Shown here: positions 22,978 through 38,816 of the stretch, one piece after another
How the letters are laid out: every line of letters starts with the position of its first letter
Numbering within the stretch: position 1 is the first letter of the stretch
NCBI RefSeq assembly: GCF_019429625.1
Contig: NZ_JAHXRW010000002.1
Span: forward strand, 186,001-250,000
Length of the DNA: 64,000 nucleotides
Direction: 5' to 3'
DNA from: Celeribacter sp. PS-C1
GTDB lineage: Bacteria; Pseudomonadota; Alphaproteobacteria; Rhodobacterales; Rhodobacteraceae
Translations under genes and position numbers: made by a program
The notes under the pieces: model-generated
Databases searched by the model: none
Told to the model about the DNA's origin: nothing
What the model saw: only the letters and a program-made list of their open reading frames with translations

Positions 22978-23052
22978 TGGAGCGGGCGAGGCGATTCGAA
23001 CGCCCGACCCTAACCTTGGCAAGGTTATGCTCTACCCCTGAGCTACGCCCGC
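22978..23052 (-). tRNA. tRNA-Gly (GCC), copy 1
   Basis: 75 nt with encoded CCA. Acceptor arms GCGGGCG/CGCCCGC pair, the D-arm reads GCTCAGGGGTAGAGC, the anticodon arm AACCTTGCCAAGGTT has anticodon GCC, and the T-arm contains GTTCGAATC. Confidence 0.96.
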
Positions 23053-23166: not shown

Positions 23167-23241
23167 TGGAGCGGGCGAGGCGATTCGAACGCCCGACCCT
23201 AACCTTGGCAAGGTTATGCTCTACCCCTGAGCTACGCCCGC
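23167..23241 (-). tRNA. tRNA-Gly (GCC), copy 2
   Basis: Identical in sequence to the copy at 22978-23052, separated from it by 114 bp on the same strand, so the two are probably co-transcribed. Confidence 0.96.
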
Positions 23242-36677: not shown

Positions 36678-36754
36678 CGCGCCGACCCTGATTTTCGAAC
36701 TGATAAACTCTGGTCGCGACGTTGCATCGTCAGCGCGTTTCCTCATGCCTGAAC

Positions 36755-36834
36755 AAAAAAACACCCGCGTCCAGGGAGGAGGAGAGGACGCGGGTGCTCT
36801 TGCATCGGACCACGAGGGAGGAGGAGTGGGTCCG
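36755..36834 (-). ncRNA. CcsR-like sRNA unit 4 (terminal, with terminator)
   Basis: Two hairpins with CCTCCTCCC-type loops: 36806-36834 (stem CGGACC, one bulge) and 36762-36796 (11-bp perfect stem CACCCGCGTCC/GGACGCGGGTG, loop on the minus strand TCTCCTCCTCCCT). The last is directly followed by seven U (36755-36761), giving an intrinsic terminator. Their 9-nt gap makes a pair; the next pair is 14 nt away. Confidence 0.85.
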
Positions 36835-36848
36835 TATCAGAAAGAAAT

Positions 36849-36921
36849 GCGGCGGTGTCAGGGAGGAGGAAGACACCGCCGCCTTCAGTCACGATCCCTC
36901 AGGGAGGAGGAAGAGAGATCG
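36849..36921 (-). ncRNA. CcsR-like sRNA unit 3
   Basis: Two hairpins 9 nt apart: 36892-36921 (9-bp stem with one G-U pair) and 36849-36882 (11-bp perfect stem GCGGCGGTGTC/GACACCGCCGC). Each loop reads TTCCTCCTCCCT on the minus strand. Confidence 0.85.
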
Positions 36922-36949
36922 GATCTCTAGGGCTAGGCCCCGTATTGGT

Positions 36950-37019
36950 GCGACGATGCAAGGGAGGAGGAAGCATCGTCGCTCTGGTCTTCAAGGTCCC
37001 AGGGAGGAGGAGAGGGACC
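36950..37019 (-). ncRNA. CcsR-like sRNA unit 2
   Basis: Hairpins at 36995-37019 (6-bp stem GGTCCC/GGGACC) and 36950-36982 (10-bp perfect stem GCGACGATGC/GCATCGTCGC), 12 nt apart, both with a CCTCCTCCC loop on the minus strand. Confidence 0.85.
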
Positions 37020-37038
37020 CCGAATTCCGGTATCTGGT

Positions 37039-37111
37039 GCGGCAGCGCCAGGGAGGAGGAGAGGCGCCGCCGCAGGTATCAGGGCCTCAGGGAGGAGGAG
37101 GAGGCCGTGAT
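37039..37111 (-). ncRNA. CcsR-like sRNA unit 1
   Basis: Hairpins at 37078-37111 (GAGGCC stem extended by ATCA/TGAT after one mismatch) and 37039-37073 (11-bp stem with one G-U pair), only 4 nt apart, each with CCTCCTCCC in the loop. The first hairpin begins 8 nt after the ccaF1 stop codon, so it is probably cut from the ccaF1 mRNA. Confidence 0.85.
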
Positions 37112-37119
37112 GAGTATTC

Positions 37120-37335
37120 TTATTTGCCGTAAGCGGCTTCGTAGGCCACGGCGTTGATCGAGGCACGGGACATGCCGAGATCGTTGAGGTCGCGGTCGCT
37201 CAGGCCGGACAGCTCAAGCACCGTTTCACGATAGACGCGGTAACGTGCGAAGCGTTCGCCGAGTGCTTTGAACAGACCGCCGAAAGAAGCGGAGGAAGCC
37301 GTTGCGGCACTGTTGATGTCGTTTGCGTAAGCCAT
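37120..37335 (-). CDS. ccaF1: DUF1127 protein, CcaF1-like RNA-binding protein
   Basis: 71 residues. The C-terminal DUF1127 motif (about 30-60) YRETVLELSGLSDRDLNDLG with a short helix before it is characteristic. In Rhodobacter sphaeroides the DUF1127 protein CcaF1 (RSP_6037) binds RNA and affects sRNA maturation, and its gene is co-transcribed with the four CcsR sRNAs directly downstream. The same order is present here. The ATG at 37335 has AAGG upstream. The naming rests on domain plus gene order, not on alignment. A long leader (about 170 nt) lies upstream. Confidence 0.85.
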   Translation of the reverse strand: MAYANDINSAATASSASFGGLFKALGERFARYRVYRETVLELSGLSDRDLNDLGMSRASINAVAYEAAYGK

Positions 37336-37508
37336 GTGACTCTAACCTTAGATATGCGTTCGGACGTTGGTCCGCTTGATGCGCCGCCGCTTACTCCCTT
37401 CGGGCTTCTGCCGGTCTTCGGTCCAACTCCGCGTCGTTTTAGCGAGGTCTTTTCGAAGCGAACCGCTTGCTGCGGTCGAAGGTGCATGCCTTGGCTGCTG
37501 TTGAACCT
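37336..37508 (-). other. 5' leader of the ccaF1-ccsR transcript
   Basis: About 165 nt between the predicted promoter and the ccaF1 start. No terminator or conserved riboswitch is recognised. Contains the GC-rich GTAAGCGGCGGCG and a weak Shine-Dalgarno (AAGGTTAGAG). Confidence 0.4.
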
Positions 37509-37537
37509 AATATTGTGGAATTGCTGCGATTGCACAA
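37509..37537 (-). promoter_or_regulatory. Predicted promoter of ccaF1-ccsR
   Basis: On the minus strand TTGTGC (37532-37537), 17-nt spacer, AATATT (37509-37514). In R. sphaeroides this operon is induced by stress through RpoHI/RpoHII; whether this element is RpoH- or RpoD-type cannot be decided by eye. Confidence 0.45.
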
Positions 37538-37583
37538 TCCGTCCAATCGGCATTGCCGCTATGCAGAATATGCATGAGTAGTC

Positions 37584-37662
37584 CTGACCTATTTTGCATG
37601 GCTCCCAAAAACGGCCTGAAATGGCAGGGGGTGTGCTGGATTGAATGCTGGAAATAGGTCAG
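37584..37662. promoter_or_regulatory. Inverted repeat upstream of mrp
   Basis: CTGACCTATTT (37584-37594) and AAATAGGTCAG (37652-37662) are perfect 11-bp inverted repeats separated by 57 bp. They lie between ccaF1 and mrp, 63 bp before the latter's start. They may be two operator sites for a looping regulator or one long weak hairpin. Confidence 0.4.
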
Positions 37663-37724: not shown

Positions 37725-38816
37725 ATGTCCGTCACGCAAGATCAAATCATGGCTGAGCTGCGCAAAGTGGCCTTGCCCGGGGGCTCGAATCTGGTGGAGG
37801 CAGACCTTGTGCGTGCATTGACGCTACGTCAGGGGGCGGTCAGTTTCGTGATCGAAGCGCCGGATGCCGCCACTGCTCAGGCCTGGGGGCAGGTCGAATC
37901 GCAGGCGAAAGCGGTGCTCGAGGCGCTCGATGGGGTCGAGAAAGTCTCCATCGTCATGACGGCTCATGGTCCTTCGGCGCCGAAACCGGCGCCTGCCGCC
38001 GGAAGTGAACCGCCGAGTCTCAAGATTGGGCGTCATCCGACCCCGCAACAGGGCAAGCAAGGCGTGCCGGGCGTCAAACACATCATCGCCATCGCTTCGG
38101 GCAAGGGCGGGGTGGGCAAATCCACCGTGTCTGCCAACCTCGCCGTGGCGCTGGCCCGTCAGGGGCGCAAGGTCGGTCTTTTGGATGCCGACATCTACGG
38201 CCCGTCGCAGCCGCGCATGATGGGGGTGAACAAGCGCCCGGCTTCACCGGATGGCCAAACCATTGAGCCGCTGCACGCTCACGGCGTCACGCTCATGTCC
38301 ATCGGCTTCATGATTCCCGATGGCGAGGCGGTTGTATGGCGCGGGCCGATGCTGATGGGCGCGATGCAGCAGATGCTGGGGCAGGTGGCCTGGGGAGAGT
38401 TGGATGTCCTTCTGATCGACATGCCGCCGGGCACGGGCGATGTTCAGCTCACTCTGGGCCAGAAGACCGAGCTCACCGGCGCTCTCGTCGTGTCAACGCC
38501 GCAAGACGTGGCGCTGATCGACGCGCGGCGTGGCATTTCGATGTTCGAAAAGCTGAAAGTGCCGGTGCTGGGGCTCATTGAGAACATGTCCACTTATGTT
38601 TGTCCGAATTGCGGCCATGAGGACCATATCTTCGGTCATGGCGGTGTCGCGCAGGAGGCAGACAAGCTCGGCGTGCCGCTTTTGGCGGAGTTGCCGCTTG
38701 CGATCGAGGCGCGTTTGGCGGGCGACAACGGAACGCCCGTGGCAGCAGGCGACAGTCCCCTAGCGGCGCCCTACATGGCGCTTGCCCAGCGGCTCGTGGA
38801 GAGTGGTGTCGCCTGA
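37725..38816 (+). CDS. apbC: Mrp/ApbC family iron-sulfur cluster carrier ATPase
   Basis: 363 residues. An N-terminal MIP18/DUF59 domain (about 5-80, ITAELRKVALPGG-like) precedes the P-loop ATPase domain: deviant Walker A in SGKGGVGKSTVSANLAVAL near residue 125, GLLDADIYGPSQPRMMG and IDMPPGTGDVQLTLG. The CxxC pair in TYVCPNCGHEDHIFG near 290 binds a transferable [4Fe-4S] cluster between two monomers. It delivers clusters to apo-proteins. It is cytosolic and monocistronic, with a terminator at 38854-38884. Confidence 0.93.
   Translation: MSVTQDQIMAELRKVALPGGSNLVEADLVRALTLRQGAVSFVIEAPDAATAQAWGQVESQAKAVLEALDGVEKVSIVMTAHGPSAPKPAPAAGSEPPSLKIGRHPTPQQGKQGVPGVKHIIAIASGKGGVGKSTVSANLAVALARQGRKVGLLDADIYGPSQPRMMGVNKRPASPDGQTIEPLHAHGVTLMSIGFMIPDGEAVVWRGPMLMGAMQQMLGQVAWGELDVLLIDMPPGTGDVQLTLGQKTELTGALVVSTPQDVALIDARRGISMFEKLKVPVLGLIENMSTYVCPNCGHEDHIFGHGGVAQEADKLGVPLLAELPLAIEARLAGDNGTPVAAGDSPLAAPYMALAQRLVESGVA

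Follow-up and report, generated by a model that had tools for sequence, protein, structure and literature searches.

The ccaF1-like gene and its hairpin array

On the minus strand of the window, by which we mean the whole 64 kb stretch of DNA analysed, a ccaF1-like gene encoding a 71-aa DUF1127 protein (37120-37335; Pfam PF06568, E 5e-12) is followed by an array of eight hairpins that spans 36757-37106. The loop word CCTCCTCCC occurs eight times in the window, always on the minus strand and between 36774 and 37098, against an expectation of 0.72, and none of 100 shuffles reached eight copies. In the Celeribacter genome as a whole, CCTCCTCCC was found 41 times (15 forward and 26 reverse) and its reversed control 36 times; given this similarity of the counts, the word is unusual only in its clustering. 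The 372-nt stretch 36748-37119 folds at -173 kcal/mol, compared with -115 ± 5.6 kcal/mol for 100 shuffles (z -10.4), and the predicted structure includes all eight hairpins, which bears out the eight minus-strand hairpins with a shared loop word described in an earlier note on this DNA.

The hairpins are arranged in four units of two, all on the minus strand: hairpins 1 (37083-37106) and 2 (37038-37074) in unit 1, hairpins 3 (36990-37024) and 4 (36950-36982) in unit 2, hairpins 5 (36892-36921) and 6 (36849-36882) in unit 3, and hairpins 7 (36806-36834) and 8 (36755-36801 with its U tract; stem 36757-36801) in unit 4. The loop-to-loop distances are 39, 49, 40, 60, 41, 45 and 42 nt, and this short and long order agrees with the four two-hairpin units of the earlier note, although the exact gap sizes given there vary with the definition of the stem end. 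In seven of the eight hairpins, the stem runs without interruption for 6-16 pairs (G-U allowed), where 6-11 bp had been stated, and the loop measures 12-13 nt. The loop size that had been claimed for every hairpin thus holds for these seven; hairpin 7, with six uninterrupted pairs, has a 17-nt loop, and a 13-nt loop requires a 1-nt bulge in its stem. Likewise, the 8 nt that had been given as the distance to the DUF1127 gene counts a longer, interrupted stem, and the stop codon lies 13 nt ahead of the first uninterrupted stem. The last stem does end in seven U residues (36755-36761), as noted before, and hairpin 8 with this U tract is likely to form an intrinsic terminator.

Relatives of the DUF1127 protein were found at 11 named loci. 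Nine of these, which include two contigs of one assembly, belong to Celeribacter (80-93% identity) and all carry arrays of 6-8 exact loops; the remaining loci come from a Yoonia MAG (48%) and a Rhodobacteraceae MAG (54%). Two contigs of Celeribacter ethanolicus NH195 (L009 and L011) have the same locus identity and the same array spacing, and this double locus perhaps reflects a mixed or duplicated assembly. A plasmid search returned six records with DUF1127 relatives, each below 60% identity.

Convergent with the array lies a gene for a 388-aa Hint-domain protein (PF13403; 35511-36677, plus strand). Divergent from the ccaF1-like gene is a gene for an Mrp/ApbC-type P-loop ATPase (37725-38816, plus strand), with AAATAGG and TGACC words upstream of it that resemble those on the ccaF1 side.

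Relationship to CcsR, cuckoo and ar14 RNAs

Rfam was searched at the gathering threshold and then, on 1001 bases, with an E-value threshold. At the gathering threshold, the array had no match, and two tRNAs were detected elsewhere in the window, encoded by adjacent genes of equal Rfam score (22981-23052 and 23170-23241, minus strand). With the E-value threshold, the CcsR1 model (RF02791) matched three of the four hairpin pairs, namely units 1, 4 and 2, with 53.2, 42.7 and 35.4 bits (E 5e-12, 7e-9 and 1e-6), all below its gathering cut-off of 65.3 bits, and unit 3 had no CcsR1 match of its own. The ar14 model (RF02344) matched two stretches with 52.9 and 51.1 bits (E 1.4e-8 and 3.4e-8), again under the gathering cut-off, which is 58.8 bits for this family. 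Weaker matches were obtained with ar7, 6C and Pseudomon-1. The CcsR1 model comprises two hairpins, and the earlier note gives two loops for each CcsR sRNA. Given that all CcsR1 and ar14 matches remain below the cut-offs, we label the array, by its sequence features, a CcsR/cuckoo-type locus without claiming formal RF02791 membership; loci of this kind are already known from Rhodobacter.

Cuckoo RNAs are defined by 2-4 hairpins with a conserved loop and helices without sequence conservation (PMC4504443). The conserved CCUCCUCCC loop and unconserved helices are found here in each two-hairpin unit, the array as a whole having eight hairpins, and a short DUF1127 gene stands beside the predicted sRNAs, as in cuckoo/CIN1 loci. 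The CcaF1-CcsR1-4 locus of R. sphaeroides (RF02791, CIN1 locus, cuckoo family) shares with this one a 71-aa DUF1127 gene, sRNAs with the CCUCCUCCC loop and a terminator. It has four CcsR RNAs, its CcaF1 is 71 aa long, and ccaF1 is controlled by RpoHI/RpoHII (PMC10253847); RNase E takes part in cutting CcsR1-4 out of the ccaF1 mRNA (PMC8625941), and these sRNAs target flhR (PMC8625941, PMC8307010). The array described here differs in belonging to another genus and in scoring under the Rfam cut-off. The homology to the ccaF1-CcsR locus that had been proposed is supported by the CcsR1 matches of the covariance model search, the ar14 matches, the DUF1127 domain and the identical protein length.

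NfeR1/ar14 of Sinorhizobium meliloti (RF02344) has the same loop motif, with three hairpins versus the eight found here. The available portions of PMC10746234 mention no DUF1127 gene in the NfeR1 transcript, whereas such a gene lies upstream of the present array. The three CCUCCUCCC loops of NfeR1 silence two ABC-transporter mRNAs and ntrB (PMC10746234). The earlier reading of the loop as an anti-Shine-Dalgarno sequence finds precedent in work published on the same loop (PMC3927594) and in a reporter assay for NfeR1 (PMC10746234).

Conservation of the two-hairpin unit in Rhodobacteraceae

Of 295 genomes sampled from the family, 217 have two loops 20-50 nt apart, a pattern that is rare in a class sample (15 of 289 genomes, four of them from the same family, the Celeribacter genome included). 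Family loci hold between 2 and 26 exact loops, and at 49 of 54 loci the first loop word comes 15-73 nt after the end of a DUF1127-like ORF. Five loop clusters (L017, L021, L022, L031 and L034) had no DUF1127-like ORF within 400 nt in the pattern search.

For the analysis of stems, seven of the 54 loci were set aside, six as duplicates or close relatives (judged by eye) and L022 as a two-loop locus without a DUF1127 gene. The remaining 47 loci contain 334 hairpins, 312 of which carry the exact loop word under a rule that admits at most one mismatch in that word and demands a minimum stem score; the rule misses some hairpins, as in L024, where 21 of 26 exact loops pass. The stem score of the 334 hairpins was 25.8 for their own arms, compared with 11.0 for arms swapped with any locus and 11.9 for arms swapped within the same locus, each of the three scores being taken at the register with the most pairing and admission by own score favouring own arms somewhat. 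Of 114 clean hairpin pairs, 105-114 showed base pairing at positions 1-5 in the first hairpin and 1-8 in the second, with several pair types in use, and the second hairpin of the unit was the longer one (11.9 versus 9.4 pairs). Among the 91 pairs predicted in an alignment of ten Celeribacter arrays, 29 stay paired through two-sided changes. Covariation of the stems among relatives, whose absence would have spoken against the earlier note, is therefore seen both across the 47 loci and within Celeribacter. Short and long distances alternated in 184 of 240 neighbours, beyond anything reached in 2000 shuffles (mean 121, maximum 144), and the two-hairpin unit is thus conserved across the family.

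Such a conserved unit fits cutting between units, and the processing of the R. sphaeroides product into CcsR1-4 points the same way. Both observations argue against an uncut array that acts as one multivalent decoy, either by competing with the 16S rRNA tail for many ribosome binding sites or by soaking up a protein such as CcaF1 or Hfq. A decoy would agree with the anti-Shine-Dalgarno core contained in the loop and with the RNA binding of CcaF1 (PMC12501420), and the range of loop numbers per locus is compatible with a dose effect, but we regard it as unlikely.

A conserved promoter block upstream of ccaF1

A conserved promoter block, which the earlier note does not describe, occupies 37509-37595, upstream of the ccaF1-like gene; its elements are given here on the minus strand. 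Its 5' element, AAAATAGGTCAG (37584-37595), shows 57-78% conservation per base in an alignment of 33 upstream regions, which were chosen by the neighbouring TGCA..GC.GCA word, so that the columns of that word are conserved by choice. It is followed by TGCA-N6-GCAT (37561-37574), which matches the LsrB box, and by the overlapping TGCATAGCGGCAATG (37551-37565), which agrees at 12 of 15 bases with the Brucella VtlR box read on the opposite strand. A predicted -35 element, TTGTGC (37532-37537), and a predicted -10 element, CAATATT (37509-37515), the latter placed by sequence and spacing, complete the block. These positions would put the window's box at about -72 to -59 relative to the predicted start.

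The box was searched in 43 upstream regions of 420 nt each, selected only by the presence of a DUF1127 gene and an array (the 49 loci minus six duplicates or close relatives). TGCA-N6-GCAT occurs in 40 of them, compared with 0.26 expected from mononucleotide shuffles, and is missing from L040, L043 and L044. In 37 of the 40 box-bearing loci, the box starts 36 or 37 nt before TTGTG. Spacings of N4, N7 and N8 were found in 0, 0 and 1 of the 43 regions, and the N5 spacing, which an overlapping half site produces, in 23; the reverse complement, ATGC-N6-TGCA, is present in 35 regions because the block is nearly palindromic. The Brucella VtlR box, CAATGCAGCCATGCA (PMC12595884), is matched at 12-14 of its 15 bases in 41 of the 43 regions and at 11 in the other two. 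Shuffles reached 12 bases in 12 of 860 cases and never more, 27 control stretches stayed at 11 or below, and five permuted motifs never exceeded 12. The best VtlR-box match lies within 16 nt of the TGCA-N6-GCAT box in 39 of the 43 regions. As regards the window itself, a TGCA-N6-GCAT/CAATGCAGCCATGCA site is thus located upstream of the predicted promoter.

The NfeR1 promoter has an LsrB site of the same form, TGCA-N6-GCAT, at the same place (-72 to -60), examined by gel shift and mutation (PMC10746234). The accessible portions of the CcsR literature make no mention of an LsrB-type box for these sRNAs. Two points speak against LsrB as the regulator: another form of the box, GCAT-N3-TG-N3-T, known from B. 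abortus and A. tumefaciens (PMC7486931), occurs on the sense strand of just one of the 43 regions and on the opposite strand of eight, and the published control of R. sphaeroides ccaF1 is by the RpoHI/RpoHII pair mentioned above.

Of 40 genomes with the exact loop-pair pattern, 32 contain a 25-base version of the block with at most two mismatches, as do 14 of 40 genomes that lack the pattern; its reversed control was found in none of the 80.

An LsrB/VtlR homologue and its putative regulon

In the Celeribacter genome, a 16-base block has one exact match, upstream of ccaF1, and nine matches with one mismatch, six of which lie inside ORFs of at least 120 aa. A block copy with one mismatch (L148) is located between a LysR gene and an sRNA of the SorY/SorX/suhB type (SorY 59.9 bits, E 8e-11; SorX and suhB also match, each of the three below its gathering score). 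This copy is not an exact TGCA-N6-GCAT and has 13 of the 15 bases of the VtlR box; the inexactness of the box beside the genome's own LsrB-like gene counts against the LsrB reading. The LysR protein (L267:2720-3637, minus strand) scored 247 bits against 9HH1, the structure of A. tumefaciens LsrB (PMC11975290), the next structure reaching 113, and the genome thereby contains an LsrB/VtlR homologue. A SorY/AbcR-type sRNA (L267:2500-2577, minus strand) follows the LsrB-like gene. The near block copy at L267 is accompanied by an RpoH-like CTTGAA..CCCCTAAAT sequence.

A comparable arrangement is found in a second genus (L269), where the block comes after a LysR gene with 75% identity and before matches to SorX and SorY (E 2e-5 and 2e-4). 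When 46 loci (41 distinct sites) around block matches in other genomes were inspected, a DUF1127 relative was present at 29; the LsrB-like gene is present at L269 only, and this rarity is a further argument against LsrB. A simple transfer of LsrB function is also opposed by two differences from A. tumefaciens LsrB, namely that trxB is not adjacent to the lsrB-like gene and that the cysteines 144, 236, 244 and 273 discussed for that protein (PMC11975290) align to V, V, V and A in an alignment read by eye. Redox sensing through these cysteines is thus not carried over, and the regulator would respond to a different signal.

VtlR activates three DUF1127 genes and AbcR2 in Brucella (PMC12595884). 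The counterparts of this Rhizobiales VtlR/LsrB regulon of AbcR sRNAs and DUF1127 proteins, that is, regulator homologue, site, sRNA and DUF1127 gene, are all present here; unlike in that regulon, the DUF1127 gene and an anti-Shine-Dalgarno array share one predicted transcript. LsrB has been called unique to Rhizobiales (PMC11975290) and VtlR conserved in Alphaproteobacteria (PMC7486931); our reading of the regulator contradicts the former and agrees with the latter, within what the available portions of both papers state. No paper linking CcaF1 or CcsR to LsrB, VtlR, LysR or SorY was found in the accessible literature, though the founding papers of the family might do so; PMC12501420 contains both CcaF1 and LsrB, the latter, in the available text, in the reference list only. 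What is new is the LsrB-type site at ccaF1 promoters, which suggests an overlooked regulator. On balance, we consider it somewhat probable that, across the Rhodobacteraceae, ccaF1-CcsR arrays and SorY/AbcR-type sRNAs are both under the control of a LysR regulator of the LsrB/VtlR type.

Another regulator may bind the block, for example PhaR of the polyhydroxybutyrate system, given that CTGC-N3-GCAG, which we take to be the PhaR core, occurs in 24 of the 43 regions and, by eye, ahead of a gene resembling a phasin gene, and that the Celeribacter genome has a PhaR gene. The block of the window itself is not CTGC-N3-GCAG, TGCA-N6-GCAT is found in 40 of the 43 regions, and further block copies stand beside an LsrB-like gene in two genera; PhaR was accordingly ranked below LsrB, and we judge its involvement improbable, somewhat more so than that of an uncut decoy.

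Candidate targets of the loops

By eye, the genes that follow GGGAGGAG sites in the Celeribacter genome include parts of TRAP and ABC transporters, soxA and dioxygenase genes. The target set of this genome comprised 33 stretches for 35 sites, the array's own site being left out and two overlapping ones merged, and its control 27 stretches hand-picked among 100 of 150 AAGGAG sites. For the family, the first GGGAGGAG site per genome was taken as target and the first AAGGAGGT site as control (30 control loci, one of them without such a site); a genus set had no control of its own, and some of its proteins are orthologous to each other or to those of the Celeribacter genome. Stretches with an ORF of less than 60 aa were dropped: in the Celeribacter genome 9 of 33 targets and 4 of 27 controls, in the family 8 of 30 targets and 10 of 29 controls, and in the genus 11 of 30 targets.

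The 65 pooled proteins after GGGAGGAG sites include SoxA, DctP and ABC families in Pfam, with five DctP and two SBP_bac_1 members (solute-binding proteins). Neither family was among the 25 most frequent of 82 families of the 42 control proteins, where each can thus have at most one member. We treat this excess of DctP and SBP_bac_1 as a lead, not a result.

The frequency of GGGAGGAG start sites was compared between two groups picked from the family sample, 40 genomes that show the exact loop-pair pattern and 40 that lack it. The sites were more common in the genomes with the pattern (Mann-Whitney p 1.5e-6), the 'without' group being impure: of its 14 genomes with the promoter block, loci of 11 were inspected and nine of these have a DUF1127 gene after the block, and some of its loci also hold a CcsR/ar14-like RNA. 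After subtraction of the background given by the reversed pattern, the GGGAGGAG/AAGGAGGT ratio was 2.58 versus 2.24, with a bootstrap interval of the quotient of 0.74-1.59, and no difference remained between the groups. Co-evolution of the array with GGGAGGAG start sites was rejected for this reason, and the statistical evidence for targeting is weak or negative.

Proposed function of the locus

The observed hairpins, their covariation and unit structure, the linkage to a DUF1127 gene, the Rfam similarity and the conserved promoter block lead us to propose, with a probability of roughly 0.78, that the locus is a CcaF1-type DUF1127 stress operon with CcsR-type silencing sRNAs, whose promoter is activated by an LsrB/VtlR-type regulator. 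One stress operon would encode both a small RNA-binding protein of the CcaF1 type and, in its 3' UTR, the array. Judging from relatives as regards transcription and RNase E processing, the 3' UTR would give rise to four two-hairpin sRNAs of the CcsR/cuckoo type. The CCUCCUCCC loop is predicted to pair with ribosome binding sites of the GGGAGGAGG type and to block translation, a silencing role that follows the relatives; by analogy, the Celeribacter array may yield four sRNAs that block GGGAGGAG sites. The repetition of equal loops on one transcript would raise the dose of the same seed. Newly proposed here is that a LysR regulator of the LsrB/VtlR type may activate the promoter from about -72, in which case CcsR arrays would join the regulon of AbcR/SorY-type sRNAs and DUF1127 proteins. 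From these sequence features, we infer that the LsrB/VtlR homologue controls the locus and that the loops silence transport and catabolic mRNAs, the likely effect being lower uptake and catabolism under stress. That the hairpins merely stabilise or terminate the ccaF1 mRNA, without a role in trans, is very improbable. The last hairpin with its U tract does resemble a terminator, but a single terminator would suffice, and 312 of 334 hairpins keep the exact loop word (at most one mismatch admitted) while the stems change, which points to a function of the loop.

If regulation by an LsrB/VtlR-type protein holds, a regulon of LsrB, DUF1127 proteins and anti-Shine-Dalgarno sRNAs would predate the split of Rhizobiales and Rhodobacterales, with the DUF1127 gene and the sRNAs forming one operon in which the number of loops (2 to 26) would set the dose. 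The promoter site would offer one transcriptional switch for CcsR sRNAs, AbcR/SorY-type sRNAs and DUF1127 proteins, which have so far been studied apart, and allows a direct test of what controls CcsR in addition to RpoHI/RpoHII. By the standards of the CcsR/cuckoo family, the array is unremarkable, and the wide size range within the family represents a natural experiment on seed dosage.

Very large arrays were found in L024 (1950-3130, genome G185), with 26 exact loops, and L052 (genome G291), with 14. Both contain near-identical three-hairpin repeats of about 140 bp and probably arose by recent tandem amplification.
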